A stretch of 64,000 nt of DNA from Streptomyces spinoverrucosus. GTDB taxonomy: Bacteria; Actinomycetota; Actinomycetes; Streptomycetales; Streptomycetaceae. Made by a program: the position numbers and the translations under genes. The notes below the pieces were generated by a model. That model saw only the letters and a program-made list of their open reading frames with translations, did not search any database and was not told the origin of the DNA. The stretch spans positions 1,674,001-1,738,000 of the forward strand of contig NZ_JADPZX010000001.1 of assembly GCF_015712165.1 (NCBI RefSeq), written 5' to 3'. This document shows, in pieces, positions 33,767-59,468 of the stretch. Each line of letters begins with the position of its first letter. Position 1 is the stretch's first letter.

Positions 33767-36046
33767 TCACCGGTTCGGCGGGCGCATCGAGGGCACTACT
33801 TCCTTGTGGTGATCCCCGTCCATGACGTGAACCCCGCGCGCCGCACGCCCTGGGTGACGTACGCGCTGATCGCGACGAACGTCGTCGTGTTCCTGTTCAT
33901 GCCCGGCCTCGCGGGTTCGGTGGCGGGTGACAGCAGTCTGGCGCAACTGTGCCATCTCCAGGCGTTCCTGGACCGGTACGCGGTGGTGCCCCAGGAACTG
34001 ATTCACCATCAGTTGCCACGCCTGGTGCCCACGGGCGACATCGCGGTCGGCCCGCAGGGCCCGGGCTGCGTGGTGGGCCCGCCGACGTACGACAAGTCGC
34101 CCGAACTGAGCGTGCTCACGGCGATGTTCCTGCACGGCAGCTGGCTGCATCTGCTGGGCAACATGCTCTTCCTGCTGATCTTCGGCAACAACATCGAGGA
34201 CCGCATGGGGCATGTGCGCTTCGCGCTGTTCTACGGCGTCTGCGGCTATGCGGCGTCGTACGGCTTCGCGCTCCTGAACTCCGAGTCCGGCGAGCCGTTG
34301 ATCGGCGCCTCGGGGGCGATCGCCGGTGTACTGGGCGCCTATCTGGTGCTGTACCCGAAGGCCAGGGTGTGGGTGCTGGTCCCGTTCCTGATCTTCCTGC
34401 CGCTGAGGTTGCCGGCCTGGCTGGTGCTGGGCGGCTGGTTCGGGCTCCAGGCGGTGTACTCCGCCGGCGAGGGCGTCTCCGACGCGGGCACCGTGGCGTA
34501 CGCGGCGCACATCGTCGGCTTCCTGGTCGGCATGCTGCTCGCCTGGCCCCTGAAGCCGGGCACGCCCCCGCCGCCGGAACCGCGCGGGCTGCTGTTCGGC
34601 AGGCGCGCGCGACCGGGTTGGTGAGGAGAAGGGCCCGGACGATGGTGGTGGTCCCGGGTCATGGGTGCGGAGGCGGTGGGCGTGGGCGAGGCCGGCCGCC
34701 GCGGTGACCGGCAGGAGCCAGGGCAGGTTGTTGACGACTGCGGAGGTGGAGCCCGTGACCAGGGAGAACTTCGACAGCAGAAGCACCAGCGTGCCGGTCA
34801 GACCGGCGGTGGCCAGGAGCGGGGCGACGACGGTCCGCCACCAGTGGCGCTCGGGGTCGTGGCGGAAGTAGGCGATCACGGAGAGGCTCACCGCGACCTG
34901 GAGCGCGACGATCCCCACCGTTCCGAAGCCGAGCATGGTGGTGGCGAGGTTGGTGTAGGGGTGGGCGCCGGCGAGCGCGAAGGCCGCGCAGACCAGGGCC
35001 GTCACCGTGATCTGGGCCAGGCTCGCGAGGTGCGGGGAGGCGTGCCGCGGGTGGGTCCGGGCCAGCGCGCCCGGCAGGATCCGCTCACGGCCGAGGGCGA
35101 ACAGGTAGCGGTTGGCCGCGGTGTGCAGGCCCAGCAGGGCGCCGAACAGGCTCGTGCACAGCAGGATCTGCATGACGGTGGTGATCCCACCGCCGAGGTA
35201 GTGGCCGGCGAGGTTGAAGAAGAGGTCGCCGAGCTGGGTCCCGGCCGCCCCGCTGAGGCCGTCCGCACCGACCGCGCCCACCCCCACCCAGCTCATCAGG
35301 GCGAAGAAGACGGTGATGAGGACGACCGAGGAGTACGTCGCCACGGGCACGCTGCGCCGGGGCGTACGGCTCTCCTCGCCGTACAGCGCCGCGGCCTCGA
35401 ACCCGACGTACGAGATGAGGGCGAACATCAACGCCACGCCGAGTCCCGGGGCGACCACGGTGTGCGGGGCGAAGGACGTGGCCGGGAAGGCGGCGGTGCC
35501 GTGGTCGGCGACGACGGCGACGCCGAGCACGAGCAGGACGGCGACCTCGGCGATCATCAGGACGGCGAGCAGCCGGGCGCTGAGGTCGATGTGCCGGTAC
35601 CCCATGAGGCCGGCCAGCGCGATGCCCGCCGAGGTCCACACCGTCCACGGCACATGCCAGCCGTGGGAGGCGGCGGCCAGTTCGGCGAAGTAGCCGAGGG
35701 CGCCGGCGACGCCGGCCACGGCGGCGCTGTAGGACAGCACCGCCACCAGCCCGCCCGCCACGGCGAGGTGCCGTCCCAGTCCGCGTTCGATGTAGGCGTA
35801 GAAGCCGCCCGTGTTCACCACCCTGCGGCTCAGGGCGGCGTAACCGACCGAGAAACAGAGCAGGGTGAGTCCGGCCAGTACGAAGGCCGCCGGCACGCCG
35901 GCCCCGTTGCCGATGGCGTAGGCGAGGGGGACGGACCCGACGACGCCGGACATGGGGGCCGCCGCCGCGGCCACCAGGAACACGATCTTCGGCGTCGTCA
36001 GGGAGCCCCGCAGCGGCGTCGTCCCGTGCGCGGCCATCCGGGTCAC
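33767..36046 (-). CDS. APC-family amino acid permease, with anomalous C-terminal read-through frame
   Basis: The family-like part is about the first 470 residues (roughly 34630-36046): 12 hydrophobic helices, with AAAAPMSGVVGSVPLAYAIGNG near residue 30 and SYVGFEAAALYGEESRTPRRSVP near 215, typical of APC transporters. After LRTHDPG the frame does not stop but runs about 280 residues antisense to the rhomboid gene, giving a Gln/Arg/His-rich tail with no family resemblance. In a neighbouring frame a stop exists at 34659, so a one-base error or mutation near 34665-34690 would restore a normal end. GTG 36046 overlaps the stop of the diiron gene (GTGA), making this the last gene of the azoxy-type operon. 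Confidence 0.75.
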   Translation of the reverse strand: MTRMAAHGTTPLRGSLTTPKIVFLVAAAAAPMSGVVGSVPLAYAIGNGAGVPAAFVLAGLTLLCFSVGYAALSRRVVNTGGFYAYIERGLGRHLAVAGGLVAVLSYSAAVAGVAGALGYFAELAAASHGWHVPWTVWTSAGIALAGLMGYRHIDLSARLLAVLMIAEVAVLLVLGVAVVADHGTAAFPATSFAPHTVVAPGLGVALMFALISYVGFEAAALYGEESRTPRRSVPVATYSSVVLITVFFALMSWVGVGAVGADGLSGAAGTQLGDLFFNLAGHYLGGGITTVMQILLCTSLFGALLGLHTAANRYLFALGRERILPGALARTHPRHASPHLASLAQITVTALVCAAFALAGAHPYTNLATTMLGFGTVGIVALQVAVSLSVIAYFRHDPERHWWRTVVAPLLATAGLTGTLVLLLSKFSLVTGSTSAVVNNLPWLLPVTAAAGLAHAHRLRTHDPGPPPSSGPFSSPTRSRAPAEQQPARFRRRGRARLQGPGEQHADQEADDVRRVRHGARVGDALAGGVHRLEPEPAAQHQPGRQPQRQEDQERDQHPHPGLRVQHQIGAQYTGDRPRGADQRLAGLGVQEREAVRRRIAADAVEQREAHMPHAVLDVVAEDQQEEHVAQQMQPAAVQEHRREHAQFGRLVVRRRAHHAARALRADRDVARGHQAWQLMVNQFLGHHRVPVQERLEMAQLRQTAVTRHRTREAGHEQEHDDVRRDQRVRHPGRAARGVHVMDGDHHKEVVPSMRPPNR
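33806..34624 (+). CDS. Rhomboid-family intramembrane serine protease
   Basis: 272 residues, six or seven hydrophobic segments. The active-site Ser is in LIGASGAIAGVLGAYL near residue 170 (GxSG), the catalytic His in AYAAHIVGFLVGMLLAW near 230, and HGSWLHLLGNMLFLLIFGNNIEDR is the conserved family block. It cleaves membrane proteins in the bilayer. Tandem GTG codons at 33806/33809 serve as the start. The whole gene is covered on the other strand by the open continuation of the permease frame (see 33767-36046). Confidence 0.9.
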   Translation: MVIPVHDVNPARRTPWVTYALIATNVVVFLFMPGLAGSVAGDSSLAQLCHLQAFLDRYAVVPQELIHHQLPRLVPTGDIAVGPQGPGCVVGPPTYDKSPELSVLTAMFLHGSWLHLLGNMLFLLIFGNNIEDRMGHVRFALFYGVCGYAASYGFALLNSESGEPLIGASGAIAGVLGAYLVLYPKARVWVLVPFLIFLPLRLPAWLVLGGWFGLQAVYSAGEGVSDAGTVAYAAHIVGFLVGMLLAWPLKPGTPPPPEPRGLLFGRRARPGW

Positions 36047-37017
36047 CGCGTGGTGCGGATCAGCTCGACGGCTTCCGGGATGCCCATGTACGGCAGCCGT
36101 ACCTCGGCCATGTCGTCGGTCCAGCGCTCGGCGAGGTCGTAGCGCTGCTTCGGGGTGGTCTCCAGAAGCCTGCAGCCGGGGAAGACCTCGTAGTCGCGCA
36201 GCAGTTCGGCGTGGGCGCCCATGCCCTGCTGGAACAGTTCCTCGCGTTCCAGGACGAACTCCTCCGCGGGCAGCTCGTCCCAGAGCGCGCGGCCGCGGCG
36301 GATGAGTTCGATCAGGCGCGGCCGGTACTCGGGGCAGCGCGCCAGGTGCTCACGGACGATGGAGCTGCCGACGGTGAGGTGACGGATCTCGTCGATCGAC
36401 GCGCCGCGGGCGATCTCGGCGGCGGCCGGGTCGAGCAGGGTCCACTTGCGCTCGCTCAGTTCGGCGGCCGGCGCGAGCACGCCCTCGATCACGATGGTGA
36501 ACACGGCGACCGCGCCGATGAAGTCGCCCTCGTCACGCACGACGGAGGTGGCGAACTCGGCGATGGGGTTGAGCACGCGTCGGGTGTAGTCGGTGCCCTG
36601 TTCGGCGATGAAGTCGAGCAGGCCCTCGGCGGGGACGCCCAGGTCTGTCAGGTGGTCGCGGAAGATCAGGGCGTGGCGGGCCTCGTCCACCACCTGGGTG
36701 ACGAAGAACTCCTGCTCGACGACGCCGGGGGCGCCGATGACGTAATTGGACAGGACGCTCACGGCGCGGGACTCGGCGAGCGAGCGGTTGCCGAGTTCCA
36801 GGACGAGCGCGTCGCGCAGCGGGCCGGGCTCGCGCATGTGGTCGGGGGTGGTGGTGGCGTGCCCGCGGCGGGCGCGGCCGCGCAGGGTGCCCTGGGCCAC
36901 CGCCGACAGCCAGTAGGCGAGGTCGCACTCTTCGGCGGTCAGGGTCATCTCCTGCGCGCCGTCGAGCAGGTTCGGAGCGCGGTCCCAGTCGGCCTCGACG
37001 GGTATCTCGACAGTCAT
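36043..37017 (-). CDS. Ferritin-like diiron protein, VlmB-like (candidate azoxy synthase)
   Basis: 324 residues. Two ExxH helices carry the likely iron ligands: VVDEARHALIF (E112, H115) and SIDEIRHLTVG (E210, H213), with carboxylates E101/E103 and E178 on partner helices. This is the ribonucleotide-reductase R2/AurF-like four-helix arrangement. In valanimycin biosynthesis VlmB is a non-haem diiron azoxy synthase acting after a membrane hydrazine synthase. Gene order beside VlmH-, VlmO- and VlmR-like genes supports that role here. Its ATG overlaps the flavin reductase stop (ATGA) and its stop overlaps the permease GTG. Confidence 0.78.
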   Translation of the reverse strand: MTVEIPVEADWDRAPNLLDGAQEMTLTAEECDLAYWLSAVAQGTLRGRARRGHATTTPDHMREPGPLRDALVLELGNRSLAESRAVSVLSNYVIGAPGVVEQEFFVTQVVDEARHALIFRDHLTDLGVPAEGLLDFIAEQGTDYTRRVLNPIAEFATSVVRDEGDFIGAVAVFTIVIEGVLAPAAELSERKWTLLDPAAAEIARGASIDEIRHLTVGSSIVREHLARCPEYRPRLIELIRRGRALWDELPAEEFVLEREELFQQGMGAHAELLRDYEVFPGCRLLETTPKQRYDLAERWTDDMAEVRLPYMGIPEAVELIRTTR

Positions 37018-38207
37018 GACACCTCACTGCGGGAAGGGGTGGTGGACGGAGCGGGGGCGGGCACGGACGGTGACGGGGTGACCTCCGCGTCGTGCAGCCG
37101 GCCGGCGAAGCTGAGCATGGGAGAGCCGGTGGCGTGGGAGCCGCCGGTCACCTCGGCGAGCAGCAGGTCGTGGTCGCCGACCCGGTGGCGGTGCAGCACC
37201 CGGCAGGAGAGGTGGGCGAGGCTGCCGGAGAGCAGGGGGGCGCCGCTGGACGCGTCGGTGGACCAGTCCAGCTGCTCGAACTGGGCGCGGCCGAGCGGGC
37301 GTTGCGGGTCGGCGAAGTGACGGGCCACGGCCGTCTGGCCGGAGCCGAGGACGTTGACGGAGAAGGTTCCGGTCCGGCGGACGATCGAGCCGAACGAGGA
37401 CTGCGGGCGCAGGCAGACGCCGATGACGAGCGGATCGCGGGAGACCGCGACCACGGCGCTCGCCGTGGTGCCGTGCGGGACGCCGTCCCGGCTGACGGTC
37501 AGCACGGTGACCCCGGAGGCGACCTGGCGCAGCGCCCGGCGGGCGGCGTCGACGGGCGGGTTCCCGACGGGGCCGGCACGGCGGGAGTCCGACGCCGGGG
37601 CGGAGTGACGGCGCCCGGGGTCGGCGGGGGTGCGGTCGGTACCGCCGGCGAGCCGGCGCCCGGGGTCGGCGGCGGTGCGGTCGGCACCGCCCGCGAGCCG
37701 GCGCCCGGGGTCCGCGGCGGTGCGGTCGGCACCGCCCGCGAGCCGGCGCCCGGGGTCGGCGGCGGTGCGGTCGGCACCGCCCGCGAGCCGGCGCCCGGGG
37801 TCCGCGGCGGTGCGGTCGGCACCGCCCGCGAGCCGGCGCCCGGGGTCGGCGGCGGTGCGGTCGGCACCGCCCGCGAGCCGGCGCCCGGGGTCGGCGGCGG
37901 TGCGGTCGGCACTGCCCGCGAGCCGGTCCCCCTCCCCCGAGGCACCCCCCGCCCCGACCCCGGCCCGGTCGGCTCCGTCCGGCACCTGGGCCGCGTCCGC
38001 CACGGCACCCTCGGCACCCACCGCCGACCGGAGCCCATCCGACACAGCGTCCTCGGCACCCACCGCCGACCGGAGCCCGTCCGACACGGCACCCTCGGCA
38101 CCCACCGCCGGACGGAGCCCATCCGACACGGCACCCTCGGCGCCCACCGTCGGGCGGGGCGGGTTCTTGGTCGTGGGGGTTGCCAGGTGGGGGGTGGGGC
38201 GGGTCAA
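37014..38207 (-). CDS. Flavin reductase (VlmR-like) with long repetitive N-terminus
   Basis: 397 residues. Only the C-terminal 170 are the flavin reductase/FMN-binding split barrel: RALRQVASGVTVLTVSRDG, GTTASAVVAVSRDPLVIGVCL, GTFSVNVLG and FEQLDWSTDASSGAPLL. It should supply FADH2/FMNH2 to the adjacent N-hydroxylase. The first about 220 residues are low complexity: four copies of a 14-residue VGAEGAVSDGLRPA unit, then seven 15-residue units of type GGADRTAADPGRRLA. The TTG at 38207 overlaps the upstream stop (TTGA); a later start inside the repeats is possible. Third-position G/C bias is retained in the repeats, which fits coding. Confidence 0.8.
   Translation of the reverse strand: MTRPTPHLATPTTKNPPRPTVGAEGAVSDGLRPAVGAEGAVSDGLRSAVGAEDAVSDGLRSAVGAEGAVADAAQVPDGADRAGVGAGGASGEGDRLAGSADRTAADPGRRLAGGADRTAADPGRRLAGGADRTAADPGRRLAGGADRTAADPGRRLAGGADRTAADPGRRLAGGADRTAADPGRRLAGGTDRTPADPGRRHSAPASDSRRAGPVGNPPVDAARRALRQVASGVTVLTVSRDGVPHGTTASAVVAVSRDPLVIGVCLRPQSSFGSIVRRTGTFSVNVLGSGQTAVARHFADPQRPLGRAQFEQLDWSTDASSGAPLLSGSLAHLSCRVLHRHRVGDHDLLLAEVTGGSHATGSPMLSFAGRLHDAEVTPSPSVPAPAPSTTPSRSEVS
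37615..37935 (-). repeat. 45-bp tandem repeats inside the flavin reductase gene
   Basis: Seven in-frame copies of a 45-bp unit encode GGADRTAADPGRRLA with few changes (one GSADRT, one GGTDRTP). A second array of four 42-bp units coding VGAEGAVSDGLRPA lies at about 37990-38150. High DNA identity suggests recent expansion by slippage or unequal recombination. Confidence 0.85.
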
Positions 38208-38719
38208 CGGCTTGCTCCGACGACGGGTTCGCCGCTGTCCTCGCTCAACGGCAGCGGGACGCGGCCGGTGGTGGCGCCCCGGCGGCGCAGCATCGCGGTG
38301 ACCTGGTCGACGAGCGGCGTGGAGACCGGTTCGAAGGGGAGCCCGAACGGCTTGAGGAAGTTACCGAAGACGCCTCGGTCGCCGAACACGTGGAACGGCA
38401 GCGCGAGCAGCGCCCATTCGGCACCGACCAGCCACCACCACAGGACGCCGACCGCGGCCACGCTGATGAGACTGTGCATGCTGTTGTAGAGGACGTAGTA
38501 GGCCTTGTGGATCCGCCCGTCCGGGCTGCGCCGGTAGGCGATCGCGCCGGGGATGTAGCCGATGACGTCGATGTAGAGGAAGAGCGCGATCGCCGGGATC
38601 CAGCGAATGTCCTGGAAATGTACGAGGATCAGCACGATCGTCACGGCGAACGCGATGAGGTACTCGGCCCGGTGGAGATTGAAGGTGACGGGTGACTCGA
38701 CCGGATTCTTGATGTCCAT
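38204..38719 (-). CDS. Small polytopic membrane protein, VlmO-like (candidate membrane hydrazine synthase)
   Basis: 171 residues from ATG 38719 (AAAGGGG upstream). Hydrophobic helices lie at about 18-36, 40-62 and 84-108. Polar metal-binding candidates face the membrane: D51 (LFLYIDVIGY), H71 (GRIHKAYYVLYNSMH), H82 and H110-D114 (PFHVFGDRGVFGN). It sits between the VlmH-like gene (36 bp) and the flavin reductase (TTGA overlap). Valanimycin-type pathways need a membrane-bound metallo hydrazine synthase, and this is the only cluster protein of that shape. The assignment is by context and features, not by recognised domain name. Confidence 0.6.
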   Translation of the reverse strand: MDIKNPVESPVTFNLHRAEYLIAFAVTIVLILVHFQDIRWIPAIALFLYIDVIGYIPGAIAYRRSPDGRIHKAYYVLYNSMHSLISVAAVGVLWWWLVGAEWALLALPFHVFGDRGVFGNFLKPFGLPFEPVSTPLVDQVTAMLRRRGATTGRVPLPLSEDSGEPVVGASR

Positions 38720-38755: not shown

Positions 38756-39895
38756 TCAGGACAGGCGCAGCGGGCCGCCGGCGAAGTACTCGGCCAGCTC
38801 CGCCGCGACGCTCGTGCGCGAGGGCGGGTGGAAGGCGAGCGCGCGGACGGACGAGGCCAGGTGCGCCGTCTCCGGGGAGCGGATGAAGGCCATGCCGCCG
38901 AGCATCTCCACGGCCTGGTCGACGGTGGCGGTGAGGAGATCCTGGGTCGCGTAGCGCGCGGTGAGCACCGCCGCCACGGCCGCGTCGCCGTCCAGTCCGT
39001 CCGCCAGGGCCCGCGCGGTGCCCTCCACCAGCCCGACCGCCGCGTCCATCCGTACGGCGAGTGCGGCACGGTCGTGCGCGCTGCCCCGGCCGGCGGCGAG
39101 CACCTGCGCCACGAGCGCGGACGCGGCGCCGGTGTACGCGGAGGTGGCGAGGAGTTCGAACCAGCTGAAGCCGGCGGTCTGCAGGTCGTCGAGCCGGTCG
39201 TGGGCCTCGGGAGTGCTGCGGATGACGAGGTCCTCGGGCACTTCGACGTCGGTGAGGCGCACCTCGTCGCTCTGCGCCGCGGCCAGGATCGGCGTGGCCC
39301 AGAACGGCCGTGTCTCGATGCCGGGGGACGTGGCGGGGATGAGCATCAGGGCCAGGCCCGACGTGCCGTCGGCGTCCCTGACCATGACGCTGGCGGTGAG
39401 CACGTCCATGGAACGGGAGAGGCTGCACGGCTTCTTGGAGCCGTTGACCCGGTAGCCGGCGGTGCTGCGCTCGGCCACCACGGCCGGGGCCAGGATGTTC
39501 TGGTCGGTGCGGCCCTCCGCCCATCCGGAGGCGAGCAGCAGCCCGTCGGCGGCCACCGAGGTGAGCACCTTCAGCTGGGCCGGCGTGAGCCGCTCGGCCG
39601 CCTCCGCCAGCCGGAACAGCATGGCGACGGTGAAGTGGTGCATCGTCGTGGCGACACCGAGGGACGGTGAGCAGGAGGCGATGGCCCGCTGCACCCGTAC
39701 GGCGTCCAGTGGGCCGGCGGCCCTCCCGCCGTAGGAGGCGGGGACCAGGAGGCCGGGGCCGCCGTGCCGGCGGTAGAGCTCCACGACCGGGCTGTCGGGT
39801 GCCTCCCGGGTCATGAGCGGGATCTCTTCGAGAGCCGTGAGCAGCCCCGGGTGAAATCGTTCGCAGGTCTCGCGCGCTACGGTGAGGGAACGCAT
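38756..39895 (-). CDS. Acyl-CoA dehydrogenase-fold flavin monooxygenase, VlmH-like amine N-hydroxylase
   Basis: 379 residues from ATG 39895 with GAGGAGAA upstream. Acyl-CoA-dehydrogenase fold: PASYGGRAAGPLDAVRVQRAIA, LLASGWAEGRTDQNILAP, YRVNGSKKPCSLSRSMDVL and VDQAVEMLGGMAFIRSPE near the C-terminus. The usual catalytic Glu base of true dehydrogenases is not evident. With a flavin reductase in the same operon it fits the two-component N-hydroxylases (VlmH with VlmR makes isobutylhydroxylamine). It is the first gene of the operon, so it follows the repeat-rich leader and SARP-type promoter. Confidence 0.75.
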   Translation of the reverse strand: MRSLTVARETCERFHPGLLTALEEIPLMTREAPDSPVVELYRRHGGPGLLVPASYGGRAAGPLDAVRVQRAIASCSPSLGVATTMHHFTVAMLFRLAEAAERLTPAQLKVLTSVAADGLLLASGWAEGRTDQNILAPAVVAERSTAGYRVNGSKKPCSLSRSMDVLTASVMVRDADGTSGLALMLIPATSPGIETRPFWATPILAAAQSDEVRLTDVEVPEDLVIRSTPEAHDRLDDLQTAGFSWFELLATSAYTGAASALVAQVLAAGRGSAHDRAALAVRMDAAVGLVEGTARALADGLDGDAAVAAVLTARYATQDLLTATVDQAVEMLGGMAFIRSPETAHLASSVRALAFHPPSRTSVAAELAEYFAGGPLRLS

Positions 39896-40022: not shown

Positions 40023-40066
40023 ATTCTTGCACCCGCCGCCTGACTCATCCCTGACACTGCCCTGAC
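40023..40066 (-). promoter_or_regulatory. SARP-type promoter of the VlmH-like operon
   Basis: On the plus strand CCTGAC occurs at 40039, 40050 and 40061, exactly 11 bp apart (minus strand GTCAGG). From the last GTCAG, 16 bp lead to AAGAAT (minus strand, 40028-40023), a -10-like hexamer. Direct heptamers at 11-bp period just ahead of the -10 are the known layout of SARP activator sites. Confidence 0.65.
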
Positions 40067-40087
40067 CAGGAGATCCGCCCAGGCGGT

Positions 40088-40115
40088 ACTGATATTTCAC
40101 TGACCCGGTACTGAC
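40088..40115. promoter_or_regulatory. Second SARP-type triple repeat in the divergent intergenic region
   Basis: ACTGA(T/C) occurs at 40088, 40099 and 40110, again at an exact 11-bp period. It lies between the VlmH-like operon promoter and the DUF2156 gene. No -10 with the spacing seen at the other sites was found, so which promoter it serves is not clear. Confidence 0.55.
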
Positions 40116-42169: not shown

Positions 42170-43240
42170 TCAGCTCGCGCCGGCGTGCGCGGGCCCGGCG
42201 GACCGCCCCACCCGGGCGAGCCGCTCGTCGAGGTGCCGGGCGGAGGAGTTGACCCGCCACAGGGCGCCGCGGGCTATGCCGCGCCGCATGTAGGGCGAGC
42301 CGGCCGACGGGACGACCACGTTGTGGAACCAGCCGGCGGCGTGCTGGGAGTCGATGGTGATGTGCAGCCGGTGGTAGGTGATGCCGACCTCGGGCAGGCC
42401 GAGCCGCTCCCAGGCCCGCACCACGTTGCGGAACCGGTCGGGTGCCAGCCACTCGGTCATGCCGAGGAATCCGACGGCCTCGGGGTAGAGGTGCCGGTAG
42501 CGGCACAGCAGCACGGCCAGGTTCCCGGAGAGCAGGTCGGTCGCGGTCATCGCGCTCTCCAGCTCGGCCTCGCCGATGTCGAACACCTCGTAGATCTTGT
42601 TGAAGAGGTGCGTGTGGACGTTCTCGGGTTCGCCGTTGCCCATCTCGTCCCAGTAGTTGCCGGCGATCTCCATCTTGCTCGGCCCGACCGTACCCACCTG
42701 CATCATCGCGAGGAAGTCGTCGAACCTGCCGTCGACGAGGGACTCCTGGATGACGTAGGTGCGCAGGTCGTCGCGGTCGGCGTCGCGGTTGATGAAGTCC
42801 AGGTAGTAGGGGTGCTTGTAGGCCCGGTGGGACCGCACCAGCCCCTTGAGCCAGGACAGGAACTGCTTGGGGTCGTCGGGCGCCTCCTCCAGGGTGCCCG
42901 GTTCGATCCAGCCGTCCTCAGCAGCGATCGTCGCGGTCTCCAGCAGCCGGGTGACCTCGTGGAGCACGACGGATCCCTCGGCGCTGGGCCGCTCGGGAAT
43001 CTGCATGATCGTCTGGTAGATGCGCGACAGCAGCAGCTGCTGTGCGTGGTGCGCCTCGGCGGAGCCCTTGGCGGCCGCCTCGTTCAGCTCGGTCACGGCC
43101 GCGACCACGCGCTCGCGCTCGCTCCGGCGGGTCCGGTCGATCTCCTCGGCGGGGACCGACAGCCAGGACGAGACCTCGTCCACGATCTCCGCGTGGCCTG
43201 ACGCGCCGGTCGCCGCCAGGGCGGTGTCATTGCTGAGCAC
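42170..43240 (-). CDS. Haem-oxygenase-like diiron oxidase (HDO) family protein
   Basis: 356 residues from GTG 43240 with GGAG 5 bases upstream. All-helical iron-containing redox enzyme family: VVLHEVTRLLETATIAAEDG, SHRAYKHPYYLDFINRDADRDDL, GEPENVHTHLFNKIYEVF, and a final YHRLHITIDSQHAAGWFHNVV helix with His/Asp/His typical of the HDO metal site. HDO enzymes include N-oxygenases such as SznF, so a role in N-oxidation of the cluster product is plausible. It lies downstream of the tRNA-like gene on the same strand, beyond a terminator-like hairpin. Confidence 0.75.
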   Translation of the reverse strand: MLSNDTALAATGASGHAEIVDEVSSWLSVPAEEIDRTRRSERERVVAAVTELNEAAAKGSAEAHHAQQLLLSRIYQTIMQIPERPSAEGSVVLHEVTRLLETATIAAEDGWIEPGTLEEAPDDPKQFLSWLKGLVRSHRAYKHPYYLDFINRDADRDDLRTYVIQESLVDGRFDDFLAMMQVGTVGPSKMEIAGNYWDEMGNGEPENVHTHLFNKIYEVFDIGEAELESAMTATDLLSGNLAVLLCRYRHLYPEAVGFLGMTEWLAPDRFRNVVRAWERLGLPEVGITYHRLHITIDSQHAAGWFHNVVVPSAGSPYMRRGIARGALWRVNSSARHLDERLARVGRSAGPAHAGAS

Positions 43241-43407
43241 GCCTACTCCAATCTTTGGGTCTCTCGGGATTCGACGCTCGATCGCATCGCGCCGGGACGT
43301 GGATTGAATACGGCACCGTCGACGGGAATCCATGGGCACCTGGATCGGAGGCGGTGCGCGAAACGGTAGGCCAACTGGCCTGTTCCGTCCGGCCGTCACG
43401 CCAAAGA

Positions 43408-43440
43408 CACGCGCATCCTGAGAAATTCGGGATGCGCGTG
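43408..43440 (-). terminator. Terminator hairpin just downstream of the tRNA-like gene
   Basis: Perfect 11-bp arms CACGCGCATCC (43408-43418) and GGATGCGCGTG (43430-43440) with an 11-base loop. It begins 17 bases after the tRNA 3' end (minus direction), and on that strand is followed by GTCTTTGG, a weak T tract. This would end the tRNA transcript before the diiron oxidase gene. Confidence 0.75.
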
Positions 43441-43456
43441 CCTGGGTGAGCGCCAG

Positions 43457-43545
43457 CGGAGAGGGCAGGATTCGAACCTGCGCGGGCATAACCCGACCGG
43501 TGAGTACCCCACCGGACCCCATTCGGCCGCTTTGGGTACCTCTCC
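43457..43545 (-). tRNA. Serine-type class II tRNA-like gene with aberrant anticodon arm
   Basis: Minus strand, 89 nt. Acceptor stem GGAGAGG/CCTCTCC is a perfect 7 bp with G73 (the serine discriminator). TA at 8-9; D arm CCCA-AAGCGGCCGAA-TGGG with the conserved GG; long variable arm CGGG-TTATG-CCCG; T arm GCAGG-TTCGAAT-CCTGC perfect. CCA is not encoded. The anticodon arm is abnormal: CCGGTG/CACCGG pairs six bases around GGGTACT, lacking U33 and any serine anticodon in register. A T-ACT (serine) reading is possible only with a mispaired stem. Seryl-tRNA synthetase reads the acceptor and variable arms, so charging is plausible but decoding is not. It could alternatively be a degenerate pseudogene. 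Confidence 0.75.
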
Positions 43546-43565: not shown

Positions 43566-43609
43566 AGCTTGGCACACCCGTACTGACACGCCCCTGATAG
43601 AAAACTGAG
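43566..43609 (-). promoter_or_regulatory. SARP-type promoter of the tRNA-like gene
   Basis: CTGAC 43583, CTGAT 43594 and CTGAG 43605 (plus strand) are at an exact 11-bp period. On the minus strand the last GTCAG is 16 bp before CAAGCT (43571-43566), the same spacing as at the VlmH-like operon. The inferred transcript start is about 14 bases before the tRNA 5' end at 43545. Confidence 0.65.
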
Positions 43610-44784: not shown

Positions 44785-46191
44785 ATGACCACTGCGGACA
44801 GGGCACCACTCGACCTGGCATATCAGCAGGCGACGGAATATCTGGATGGGCTCGCCCGACGACCGGTGGGCGCCACGGCAAATGCCGAACAATTGCTGAA
44901 AATGTTCGGTGGCCCGCTGCCCGGCGGGCCCACCGACGCCGCCGACACCATCGCCCTGCTGGGCCGGGCCGTCGCGGAGGGCGGTATTCCGACGGCGTCC
45001 GGTCCGCGCTACTTCGGCTATGTCACCGGCGGCACCCTGCCGGTGGCGATCGCCGCGGACTGGCTCGTCGCGGCCTGGGACCAGACCGCGAGCCTGTACA
45101 ACCTCTCGCCCGCGATCGCCGTCGCCGAACACGTCGCCGGCCAGTGGGTGCTGGAGTTGCTCGGGCTGCCGCGGCACGCCTCGGTGGGCTTCCCGACCGG
45201 CTGCACCATGGCCCATCTGACCTCGCTCGCCGCCGCCCGCCACCAACTGCTCGGCGCGATGGGCTGGGACGTCGAGCGCGACGGCCTGCCGGGGGCACCG
45301 CGCGTGCACCTCGTGGCCGGGGCGCAGCACCACATGACCATCGACCTCGCGGCGCGCTACCTCGGCTTCGGCAGCGGCGGCATCCACAACGTGCCGGTCG
45401 ACGAGCGGGGCCGGATGCGGCCCGACGCCCTGGCGGACACGCTGGCCGGTCTGGAGGGGCCGGTCATCGTCTGCGCGCAGGTCGGCGACGTCAACTCCGG
45501 TGCGGTGGACCCGGTCGGCGAGATCTGCGACATCGCCCACCGGCACGGCGCGTGGGTCCATGTCGACGGGGCGTTCGGGCTGTGGGCCGCGGCCAGTCCC
45601 CGGCTGCGGCCGCTGGTCGACGGGGTCGAGAAGGCGGACTCCTGGGCGCTGGACGCCCACAAGTGGCTCAACGTGCCCTACGACTGCGGCATCGTGGTCG
45701 TGGCGCACCCCGAGGCGCACCGGACCGCGATGCTCGGCGGACGGGCCGGCTATCTGCCGGCGGGCGCGGTGGGCGAGCGGGACGCCATCGAGTGGGTGCC
45801 GGACTTCTCCCGGCGGGCGCGGAGCCTGCCGGTGTGGGCCGTGCTGCGCAGCCTGGGCCGCGACGGTGTGGCCGAGCTGGTGGAGCGGTGCTGCGACCTC
45901 ACGGCCCGGTTCGCCGAGCGCCTCTCCGGTATACCCGGCGTGGAACTCCTCAACGAGGTCGTGCTGAACCAGGTGATGGTGCGCTTCGGCGACGACGACG
46001 CGACGACCCGGCGGGTGATCGGCCTGATCCAGGACAGCGGGGTCTGCTGGTTCGGCGGCACCGTCTGGCAGGGCAGGGCCGCGATGCGGGTGTCGCTGGT
46101 CAACTGGCGGACCACCGAGCACGACGTGGACCGCAGTGTGGAGGTCATCCGGGAGGCGGTCCTCAAGGCCGTCCCGACGGCGCGGACGTGA
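44785..46191 (+). CDS. PLP-dependent group II amino acid decarboxylase (VlmD-like role)
   Basis: 468 residues from ATG 44785. Fold-type I decarboxylase: GFPTGCTMAHLTSLAAARHQLL near residue 135 for phosphate binding, WVHVDGAFGLWAA near 265 (His-Asp of the PLP site) and SWALDAHKWLNVPYDCG near 295 with the Schiff-base Lys. It should decarboxylate an amino acid to the amine that the N-hydroxylase uses, as valine decarboxylase VlmD does for valanimycin. The amino acid substrate cannot be read from the sequence. Confidence 0.82.
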   Translation: MTTADRAPLDLAYQQATEYLDGLARRPVGATANAEQLLKMFGGPLPGGPTDAADTIALLGRAVAEGGIPTASGPRYFGYVTGGTLPVAIAADWLVAAWDQTASLYNLSPAIAVAEHVAGQWVLELLGLPRHASVGFPTGCTMAHLTSLAAARHQLLGAMGWDVERDGLPGAPRVHLVAGAQHHMTIDLAARYLGFGSGGIHNVPVDERGRMRPDALADTLAGLEGPVIVCAQVGDVNSGAVDPVGEICDIAHRHGAWVHVDGAFGLWAAASPRLRPLVDGVEKADSWALDAHKWLNVPYDCGIVVVAHPEAHRTAMLGGRAGYLPAGAVGERDAIEWVPDFSRRARSLPVWAVLRSLGRDGVAELVERCCDLTARFAERLSGIPGVELLNEVVLNQVMVRFGDDDATTRRVIGLIQDSGVCWFGGTVWQGRAAMRVSLVNWRTTEHDVDRSVEVIREAVLKAVPTART

Positions 46192-57621: not shown

Positions 57622-58428
57622 CTACGACGAGGCGTCGGCCCCCGCCGTCAGGGGGGCCGACGCCTCGTCGTGGCGCAGCAGCACGAGCCGGGCGAGTTCC
57701 GGTGCGGGGCCCAGTACCCCCGCCACCACTTCGGCGCCCCCGTCGTGGGCCGCCCGGAAGATTCGGTCGGGCAGTATGCCGGGGGCGATGACGTACGGGG
57801 CGACGGCCACGCGCCGGGCGCCGCCCGCCCGCAGGGCCCGTACCGCTTCGACCACGCCCGGCACACCGGCCGGACGGCAGGACGGGGAAGCGGCCGCGGG
57901 GCGCACGGAGCACCAGCCGGTGCGCGCCCACTCCTGCCTGGTACGGGCGATCTGCGCGATCGCCGCCGCGTCGGTGGAGCCCGCGAACGCCAGCACCACG
58001 CCCGTGGACGACCGGTCCTCGGGCCGGAGCCCGGCCTGTGCCAGCCGGCGCTCCAGCGCGGCGTGCAGCAGGGGCGAGGGGCCCAGAACGGCGGCCCGGC
58101 GCATCCGCAGCGGCAGTGCGCCGACGTCGTCCAGCACGGCGGGCAGGTCGGTCCTGGCGTGGAAGGCCCGGGTGAGCAGCAGGGGCAGGACCACCACCTC
58201 CGCCACGCCCTCGGCGGCCAGCCGGTGCAGGGCCTCGCGCACGGTCGGGGTGTCGAAGTCGAGGAAGGCGGTCGTCACCCGGAGCGCGGGCCGGCGCGCG
58301 CGGACCAGCCCGGTCAGGGCGTGCACCGTCGCCGCGTGTCGCGGGTCGCGGCTGCCGTGGGCGACGACGAGCAGGGCGCGGCCGACCCTGGCGGGCCGGC
58401 CGGCGGTCGCTGCGGACGACGGTCTCAC
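57622..58428 (-). CDS. Sirohydrochlorin chelatase family protein (CbiX-like)
   Basis: 268 residues from GTG 58428. The first half has LLVVAHGSRDPRHAATVHAL with the metal-inserting His, and AEVVVLPLLLTRAFHARTDLP; the second half repeats the fold (RRVAVAPYVIAPGILPDRIF). It would insert iron into sirohydrochlorin to make siroheme for the sulfite reductase. Its GTG overlaps the stop of the SARP gene (GTGA), so it is translated with the regulator. Confidence 0.82.
   Translation of the reverse strand: MRPSSAATAGRPARVGRALLVVAHGSRDPRHAATVHALTGLVRARRPALRVTTAFLDFDTPTVREALHRLAAEGVAEVVVLPLLLTRAFHARTDLPAVLDDVGALPLRMRRAAVLGPSPLLHAALERRLAQAGLRPEDRSSTGVVLAFAGSTDAAAIAQIARTRQEWARTGWCSVRPAAASPSCRPAGVPGVVEAVRALRAGGARRVAVAPYVIAPGILPDRIFRAAHDGGAEVVAGVLGPAPELARLVLLRHDEASAPLTAGADASS
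57624..57671. terminator. 20-bp perfect hairpin between permease and CbiX-like genes
   Basis: Arms run 57624-57643 and 57652-57671, perfectly complementary over 20 bp (ACGACGAGGCGTCGGCCCCC in the left arm), with an 8-base loop. It overlaps the last codons of the CbiX-like gene (minus) and probably ends both convergent transcripts. Confidence 0.85.
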
Positions 58429-59267
58429 GGTGCCGACGCCATGGTGGCGACCGGAGGTGCCGTCGGCCGGGCCGGCTCGTCGCTGAGCAGCATGGGGTCG
58501 TGGGTGAGGATGGCTTGTTCGTACTGGCGCAGGACCGGCGACGGCTCGATGCCCAGGGACTCGACCAGGTCGTGCCGGCACTGCCGGTAGACGTTGAGCG
58601 CGTCCAGCTGGCGTCCGGACCGGTACAGGGCGCGCATCAGCAGCAGGCAGAATTGTTCCTGCAGCGGGTTGCGGGCGTGGAGCTCCATGAGTTCCGGCAG
58701 GATGCGTTCGTGTCCGCCGACGCGCAGTTCGAGCTCGTAGAGCAGGGCCTGGGCGAAGTTGCGTGCCTCCAGATAGCGCGCGGAGGCCGCCTGGCAGAGC
58801 GGGCCTCCGGTGAGGCCGCCGAACACGGGTCCCTGCCACAGCGAGAGCGCCGCGCGCAGGTTGGCGATGTCGTGGGTGATGTCCTGGGTGACGTCGGGCC
58901 GGCCGGCGCGGCCGTGCCGGGCGTGGATCGCCTCCACGGCGTCGAGGAAGACGTAGGAGTCGAGTTCCGATCGCTCCAGGGTGAAGCCGTAGCCCGACAT
59001 GCTGGTGACCACTCGGGAGGTCTCCCGCTCGGGTTCGAGCGCGGCGAGTGTACGACGGATTCTGCTGATCTGTGCCTGGAGGGCGTTGTCGACCTTGGCC
59101 GGTGGGGTGGTTCCCCAGAGTTCGACGATGAGGGAATCAACGGTGACCAGCGAACCGCCGGTTACCAACAGGGTAGCCAAAAGCGTCTGCTGAATGGCGC
59201 CACCAAGTTTTACGGGTTCTTTGCCGGGATCTATTTCTATGCGGCCCAGTAGTGAAAATTTCAACAC
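58425..59267 (-). CDS. SARP-family transcriptional activator
   Basis: 280 residues from GTG 59267 (GGGGGAGAGAAGG upstream). The N-terminal OmpR-like winged helix (about 1-95) includes LGGAIQQTLLATLLVTGGSLVTVDSLIVELWG and NALQAQISRIRRTLAALEPE; the bacterial transcriptional activation domain follows (FLDAVEAIHARHG, RNFAQALLYELELRVG, LLLMRALYRSGRQLDALNVYRQCRHDLVESLGIEPSP). Small SARPs activate biosynthetic clusters by binding direct repeats at 11-bp period. Such repeats are found at six or more promoters in this window. Its own promoter carries a TetR-type operator. Confidence 0.92.
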   Translation of the reverse strand: MLKFSLLGRIEIDPGKEPVKLGGAIQQTLLATLLVTGGSLVTVDSLIVELWGTTPPAKVDNALQAQISRIRRTLAALEPERETSRVVTSMSGYGFTLERSELDSYVFLDAVEAIHARHGRAGRPDVTQDITHDIANLRAALSLWQGPVFGGLTGGPLCQAASARYLEARNFAQALLYELELRVGGHERILPELMELHARNPLQEQFCLLLMRALYRSGRQLDALNVYRQCRHDLVESLGIEPSPVLRQYEQAILTHDPMLLSDEPARPTAPPVATMASAP

Positions 59268-59468
59268 AAGCCTTCTCTCCCCCGCAAAATGAACGTTCAC
59301 CAGAGCTGGCTTGAACCCGACCGTGAACACTCGCAACTTGTACGGGTTCCCGCCATTTACAGGATGACCAGAAACGATCGCCGTCGTACGAGAAGGGCCG
59401 CACGTCCACGCAACCCTATGTCTCCCCTGGTCAGAGGCCAGGGCGGCAGATCCAGAATCCTGCTATAT

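Follow-up and report, generated by a model that had tools for sequence, protein, structure and literature searches.

In this study, we analysed a stretch of 64,000 nucleotides from the genome of Streptomyces spinoverrucosus (the window; its genome is called the host), in which a gene for a small tRNA-like RNA lies among the genes of a putative VlmA-type biosynthetic cluster (Table 1). A sequence-only reading of this DNA had placed a DUF2156 transferase gene about 2.3 kb from the RNA. This gene was recovered with Pfam PF09924 (211 bits), and the RNA lies 2.26 kb downstream of it on the opposite strand. With VlmH-, VlmR- and VlmB-like neighbours beside the PF09924 gene, the gene set corresponds to that of a VlmA-type cluster, the VlmB match being weak and VlmO being placed by gene order only. 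In the relative G401, the place of the permease is taken by a 493-aa gene, probably an amino-acid permease as judged from gene order, and a SerRS gene follows directly. A scan for promoter and terminator consensus sequences at the RNA called nothing, the downstream hairpin included.

Table 1. Features of the window around the RNA gene, with the basis of each label
Feature	Position	Strand	Basis or remark
Amino-acid permease	33767..36037	minus	Adjoining SerRS gene absent here, unlike G401
AurF/R2-like diiron protein, VlmB position	36043..37017	minus	Weak match, below Pfam cut-off; putative label
Flavin reductase domain protein, VlmR-type	37014..38003	minus	Putative label
171-aa protein, VlmO position; common to the G038, G026 and G035 clusters	38204..38719	minus	No family match; putative label from gene order
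Acyl-CoA-dehydrogenase-like flavoprotein, VlmH position	38756..39895	minus	Putative label; gene set from PMC9379638 (excerpt)
Two triple TCAG repeats (40040-40065, 40089-40114), between DUF2156 gene and VlmH-like operon	40040..40114	minus	Pattern search
DUF2156/PF09924 VlmA-type aminoacyl-tRNA-dependent transferase, 331 aa	40206..41201	+	Putative function, from family
Haem-oxygenase-2-like iron redox enzyme, also in G038 cluster	42170..43240	minus	Family match
Stable GC-rich hairpin just 3′ of the RNA, also in G208, G038 and G401	43406..43442	minus	Possible terminator
Non-decoding serine-type tRNA (G73 at 43457; acceptor GGAGAGG/CCUCUCC; long variable arm)	43457..43545	minus	Sequence, fold, ARAGORN, Rfam
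Three TCAG in direct repeat (11-bp period), 38 nt before the RNA	43583..43608	minus	Putative SARP-type operator
PLP-dependent decarboxylase near the RNA, also in G038 cluster	44902..46191	+	Family match
SARP-family regulator homologue	58425..59270	minus	47-48% identity to SARPs of two relatives' clusters

The window RNA folds as a class-II tRNA with a 7-bp acceptor stem, G73, a 3-bp D stem, G18-G19, a long variable arm and a T arm with a 5-bp stem (GCAGG-UUCGAAU-CCUGC). The serine-type tRNA with perfect acceptor and T arms that the sequence-only reading had described was thereby confirmed, as it was by the Rfam tRNA model RF00005, which gave 33.9 bits (cut-off 29) both on a short stretch and across the whole genome. 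A fast scan over the whole window missed the RNA, and among the 68 matches above the cut-off in the host genome it is the lowest-scoring. In the ARAGORN output it appears as tRNA-???, its 'anticodon' being 4 nt long (gggg). Drawn as in the sequence-only reading, the anticodon arm has 6 bp around GGGUACU; the minimum-energy fold closes it to CCGGUGGG-GUA-CUCACCGG, with 8 bp and a 3-nt loop. This arm offers neither U33 nor a serine anticodon (NGA or GCU), and the 5-bp anticodon stem with 7-nt loop and U33 that characterises RF00005 is not formed. The serine tRNA identity set consists of G73, G1-C72, G2-C71, A3-U70, C11-G24 and the long variable arm, all of which the window RNA has. Besides it, the host carries four ordinary tRNA-Ser genes (GCU, UGA, CGA and GGA), all with G73, versus A73 in the host Leu and Tyr tRNAs shown. 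Elsewhere in the host genome lie two more odd tRNAs: in L088 (G000:C1:5505589-5505659), called Leu|Pro(ag), the anticodon loop is short, and in L089 (G000:C1:5395509-5395581), a tRNA-Leu(UAG), the variable region is short.

For the detection of relatives, BLAST was run in 100 genomes, host included, and returned full-length relatives of the RNA in four other genomes of the genus and many partial ones. Most partial matches were full copies with diverged anticodon arms, and four (L007-L010) were other tRNAs; two of these (L008 and L010, in G010 and G020 of the same genus) are of type tRNA-???, the anticodon being 4 nt long (ctga), and their T arm resembles that of the RNA family. A covariance model built from 20 copies of six genomes was run over 392 same-genus genomes, in 51 of which it detected at least 145 copies scoring 71 bits or more. 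This threshold was placed, after inspection of the scores, in the gap from 71.5 to 59 bits, the next scores being one at 59 and then about 54 bits; in-genus matches below 71 bits (about 54 and less) and one in G732 (55.9 bits, no DUF2156) were taken as ordinary tRNA-Ser by score, and five sub-threshold class-level matches that were inspected were all tRNA-Ser(UGA). Since full-length homologues occur in 4 of the 99 other relatives searched by BLAST and further copies in 51/392 genomes, the window RNA is more than a chance sequence. A DNA-pattern search in named genomes gave at least 120 stretches, 119 of which yielded at least 144 parsed copies. Among the matches listed, the taxa include Salinispora (4 species), Micromonospora matsumotoense, Kitasatospora, Embleya, Saccharothrix, Streptacidiphilus, Wenjunlia, Parafrankia and a Streptosporangiaceae MAG. 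A class-wide search (394 genomes) added four RNA genomes above 71 bits, three of the same genus and one Parafrankia. In a plasmid collection, 11 records match the RNA with no feature annotated beneath, its feature table omitting RNA genes. By sequence and model score, the window RNA is a member of a large, widespread actinobacterial family of serine-type tRNAs.

Copies of the RNA stand alone, in tandem arrays of two to four with a spacing of mostly 96-156 bp, or dispersed, and many lie far from any cluster gene. In S. coeruleorubidus ATCC 13740 (L315), an array of three adjoins DUF2156. Four genomes (G003, G321, G366 and G404) hold at least 10 copies each, 10 being the maximum number of candidates scored per genome. 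Together with G033 and G427, these genomes have at least eight copies each, mostly dispersed and many with SARP-type repeats; the gene surroundings of dispersed copies were viewed in G003, G033 and G038. The high copy number of the six genomes possibly reflects gene dosage for a carrier pool.

Conservation of the stems was analysed in 182 distinct copies, counted after leaving out four: L229 and L293 (incomplete at the stretch end), L285:4693 (N-masked) and L306:5168 (broken). L254 and one copy of L321, incomplete and unparsed, are also outside this count. The acceptor stem is complete (7 pairs) in 179/182 and G73 is present in 182/182 copies, figures that give no unbiased rate because intact copies are more readily found by both the model and the 5′ pattern. 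U33 together with a serine anticodon was found in none of the 182 copies in any register; U33 with a non-serine triplet occurs in 15 registers of 13 copies. The loops of the anticodon arm measure 3-6 nt in 176 copies, among them GNRA tetraloops in 22 and UNCG tetraloops in 16, and the arm of the Saccharothrix copy reads UCCGG-GAAA-CCGGA. Of eight ordinary host class-II tRNAs used as control, seven gave a 7-nt loop; in this comparison the fold of the RNA family covered position 26 to the T arm, that of the control tRNAs the anticodon arm alone.

The sequence-only reading had proposed to look for compensatory changes in the stems. In an alignment of 83 distinct rows, including two low-score model matches (L046:2036 and L092:1512 minus), 96.6% of the cells are paired, and slid controls fall to 38-59%; two-sided changes were found at 9 pairs versus 4.9 in shuffles (0/500 as high). 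Absence of the RNA from other clusters and decaying stems had been named as marks of a pseudogene; this check did not refute the reading, for the stems are kept and all 51 RNA genomes have a DUF2156 gene. In 11 close pairs of copies, a 53-nt core is 91-100% identical and 21 of the 22 flanks of 100 nt are 63-91% identical, the exception being the downstream flank of G207/G339, which is 100% identical. The anticodon-plus-variable region is 69-97% identical and lies above both flanks in 9 of the 11 pairs; therefore, the hairpin appears to be kept while its letters and length drift. This conservation fits a kept hairpin and could hide another role. G18-G19 is invariant in 20 aligned rows of the family. 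The pair A51-U63 occurs in 178/182 copies and in 0/4 host tRNA-Ser; in staphylococcal tRNA-Gly it is named as a weak EF-Tu pair (PMC4052509, excerpt), and by this analogy its presence in the RNA family fits, without proving, an escape from EF-Tu.

Occurrence of the RNA was compared with that of homologues of the window DUF2156 protein at ≥50% identity, which are present in 70 of the 392 genomes. Both were found in 49 genomes, the RNA only in 2, the homologue only in 21 and neither in 320, that is, a close DUF2156 in 49/51 RNA genomes versus 21/341 RNA-less ones (Fisher p 5e-43, the related genomes not being independent). After removal of the six genomes used for building the model, 43/45 RNA genomes have a close DUF2156. 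The two remaining RNA genomes, G207 and G339, encode a distant DUF2156 (34-35% identity) 2.3 kb from the RNA, so that all 51 RNA genomes have a DUF2156 protein, 49 of them a close one. In the four further RNA genomes of the class-wide search, it lies on the same contig in 4/4, 0.2 to 24.5 kb away. RNA and DUF2156 gene lie within 30 kb of each other in 42/51 genomes (G404, G366, G207 and G339 included) and are divergent at a distance of 186-319 bp in 24/51; they are on different contigs in eight genomes and 31.8 kb apart in G260. Among the at least 119 pattern-search loci listed, 33 have a DUF2156 gene in the same stretch (≤8 kb). Together with the shared SARP-type repeats described below, these data support the sequence-only reading's proposal of a dedicated non-decoding tRNA-Ser tied to DUF2156.

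In a tree of 60 DUF2156 proteins, drawn from 72 DUF2156 genes and labelled by genome, the RNA label needs 2 changes versus 12.8 in shuffles. The second DUF2156 of the RNA genome G342 was labelled RNA-less because the RNA adjoins the other copy, a choice that lowers the change count. The 14 RNA-less rows come from 12 of the 21 RNA-less genomes, whose DUF2156 loci were viewed, and from this second G342 copy. Eleven of the 14 form one clade, and 8 of these 11 have an azodyrecin-type methyltransferase, acyl reductase and transaminase; the RNA is thus missing where DUF2156 falls in a mostly azodyrecin-type clade. For azodyrecin, alanyl-tRNA from the cellular pool has been proposed as donor, with a cluster without synthetase (PMC9379638, excerpt). 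The azodyrecin-type methyltransferase was not found among the RNA-locus proteins compared, many of these loci comprising only 3-4 kb. G376, G125 and G112 lack the RNA and group with 35 RNA-bearing rows (branching unresolved), with triple repeats in the locus; the RNA is therefore not indispensable in every such cluster. At three DUF2156 loci among RNA-bearing relatives (L170, L172 and L173), a SARP homologue and triple repeats were seen with no RNA, for which recent loss of the RNA or a different donor is possible.

Upstream of 121 of 199 distinct RNA copies, a perfect TCAG-N7-TCAG-N7-TCAG is present (shuffles 0), and a TCAG pair precedes 158 of them (shuffles 0.00025). Among the matches listed, many copies without the triple are second or later in tandem arrays, and the repeats also stand before dispersed copies. 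The 8.85-Mb host genome contains six perfect triples, three of them in the window cluster (one preceding the RNA, the other two in the gap that separates the DUF2156 gene from the VlmH-like operon), and the reversed control gave 0. Heptameric direct repeats with an 11-bp period, located upstream, are the classical form of a SARP site (PMC10972967 and PMC7040171, excerpts), and the repeat at the RNA has this form. VlmI sites with three heptamers precede vlmJ and vlmA-vlmH (PMC10972967, excerpt). Genes for SARPs (BTAD plus Trans_reg_C, Pfam) were identified in the G404 and G035 clusters, with homologues in many other loci, and none of the azodyrecin-type loci checked (L174, L176 and L178) has a triple TCAG. 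At L184, L186, L188 and L189, no RNA stands beside DUF2156, a triple TCAG precedes the neighbouring SARP gene, and RNA copies lie elsewhere in the genome. Another perfect triple of the host (G000:C1:4442372-4442397) lies about 80 bp from the tRNA-Ser(CGA) gene (4442478-4442562), in opposite orientation.

SerRS genes were surveyed with PF02403 in the 72 RNA or DUF2156 genomes. The best SerRS per genome scores 82-95 bits, the extra ones near clusters 26-41 bits and 80 in G412. An additional SerRS no more than 30 kb from DUF2156 or the RNA was found in 25/51 RNA genomes versus 0/21 RNA-less DUF2156 genomes, above the Pfam cut-off in 24 of the 25 and below it in G154. In 18/25 it lies 5.0-6.4 kb from DUF2156, and in G412 it lies 172 bp from the RNA. 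Three extra SerRS that were tested are serS (NCBIfam TIGR00414; 391-423 bits versus a cut-off of 302). The azodyrecin-type clusters have neither the RNA nor a SerRS. A search of the window for a cluster SerRS (VlmL-type) found none, and the host genome has the housekeeping SerRS only, which therefore must serve here if the model set out below holds.

We regard it as highly probable that the RNA, predicted to be charged with serine, donates the seryl group to the VlmA-type DUF2156 enzyme, likely in azoxy synthesis, and does not serve the ribosome. At the level of sequence, this rests on its structure with a conserved core and without a serine anticodon, on its occurrence together with DUF2156, often closely linked, and on SARP-type repeats before both the RNA and the biosynthetic operon. 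From these features we infer that a SARP drives its expression, that SerRS charges it, that it is kept out of translation and that it donates to DUF2156. A SARP would switch on the RNA together with the enzymes, and SerRS would charge it, the cluster-linked one where present and the housekeeping one in the window's genome. Such charging is expected because bacterial SerRS reads the acceptor end and the long variable arm and not the anticodon. Without a usable anticodon, the Ser-tRNA would escape translation and form a private pool. DUF2156 would take the seryl group from it to form an O-seryl-hydroxylamine, as described for VlmA. With less confidence, we lean towards the broader picture of a carrier RNA, that is, a tRNA-Ser stripped of decoding, amplified, SARP-switched, often provided with its own SerRS and used only to bring serine to DUF2156, like a carrier protein with acyl groups.

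A regulatory tRNA mimic, charged or uncharged, could instead bind SerRS or another protein and control cluster expression or serine sensing with no donation. The SerRS-like surface and the SARP-type repeats fit such a mimic equally well, and a pseudo-tRNA with regulatory effects is on record (PMC3399842, excerpt). Yet the RNA is absent from azodyrecin-type clusters, which use the same enzyme family with a proposed alanyl donor (PMC9379638, excerpt), a cluster-linked SerRS occurs only together with the RNA, and the amplified copy number would suit a consumable carrier better; we therefore consider a mimic improbable. Similarly improbable, or slightly more so, is a family of mobile repeats or decaying pseudogenes that derives from a tRNA and is only carried along with the clusters. 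High copy number with dispersal, tandem arrays, variable anticodon arms and one clearly broken copy (L306:5168) would agree with this. However, decay would strike all stems, yet the acceptor stem is almost always complete in a search that favours intact copies. Two-sided changes, A7-U66 among them, are present, the core exceeds nearly all flanks in conservation, SARP-type repeats precede dispersed copies too, and presence of the RNA follows the DUF2156 tree in part.

That the RNA decodes through an unusual anticodon, in recoding or mistranslation, is very improbable. The 13 copies with U33 and a non-serine triplet in a 7-nt loop register (e.g. L151 with CUU and L167 with UCA) would allow it, but the triplets differ among relatives (CUU with U33 in L151, UCU without U33 in its close relative L029), 176/182 arms have loops below 7 nt, GNRA and UNCG tetraloops included, and the host already has four tRNA-Ser isoacceptors. 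A cis-acting leader of the next gene, T-box-like or an attenuator, is just as improbable, since, despite the position of the window RNA 217 bp upstream of the haem-oxygenase-2-like gene on the same strand, the downstream gene varies by locus, copies occur in tandem or at a distance from the cluster, and the downstream hairpin suggests a separate transcript in the window.

Donation of serine to DUF2156 can be set against several known tRNAs. Allo-tRNAs and other non-canonical serine tRNAs accept serine and have an unusual shape; allo-tRNAs decode and have altered acceptor/T lengths, whereas the RNA family has 7/5 and no serine anticodon left. The pseudo-tRNA tRNA-Other of Bacillus cereus is not known to be of serine type. 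The non-proteinogenic tRNA-Gly of Staphylococcus aureus keep the glycine anticodon, whereas the RNA family has lost the serine anticodon and its genes lie in, or co-occur with, biosynthetic clusters. Like the RNA family in the reading preferred here, the staphylococcal tRNA-Gly are extra isoacceptors reserved for an aminoacyl-tRNA-dependent transferase (FemXAB); unlike it, they are without G18-G19, and they serve the cell wall (PMC4052509, excerpt). tRNA-Other is likewise said to be non-functional in translation; it flanks a genomic island, and no linked transferase family is named in the excerpt (PMC3399842).

Closest is the valanimycin system of Streptomyces viridifaciens with VlmA and the SerRS VlmL. 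VlmA uses seryl-tRNA to form O-seryl-isobutylhydroxylamine (PMC12945691, excerpt). Shared are the transferase family DUF2156/PF09924, homologues of A, H, R and B by family or position, the seryl-tRNA donor (PMC12945691, PMC9379638; excerpts), a SARP with three-heptamer sites (PMC10972967, excerpt) and, in many RNA-family members, the linked SerRS. The difference is the dedicated tRNA, unmentioned in these excerpts. In 2014, the diversion of Ser-tRNA from translation in valanimycin-type pathways was stated as unknown (PMC4052509, excerpt). Thus, tRNAs reserved from translation have a precedent in staphylococcal tRNA-Gly, and for an anticodon-less family of biosynthetic-cluster tRNAs neither a precedent nor a description was found in the open-access literature searched.

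If the proposed role is true, a dedicated non-coding RNA would be a working part of biosynthetic gene clusters; in the broader carrier-RNA picture, natural-product biosynthesis would have an orthogonal aminoacylation system of its own. The RNA opens to experiment the question of how valanimycin-type pathways prevent the use of Ser-tRNA in translation. The family would be a natural tRNA in which serine charging is uncoupled from decoding, a marker for serine-type azoxy clusters and a source of candidate SerRS-tRNA pairs for engineering.

Some sequences at the margin of the family deserve mention. Two ARAGORN calls, L183:14584 and L154:11166, were considered as further copies; they are without a tRNA acceptor and were excluded from later counts. 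The copies of Salinispora mooreana (L235) and S. cortesiana (L336) have an odd T arm, GCAGCGTTCGAATCCTGC, in which the usual 5-bp stem is not formed. In L306:5168 of Streptomyces sp. DHE7-1, the 3′ half, with T arm and acceptor strand, is missing, and the genome has other intact copies; by its sequence this is a broken copy, which indicates that surplus copies can decay.
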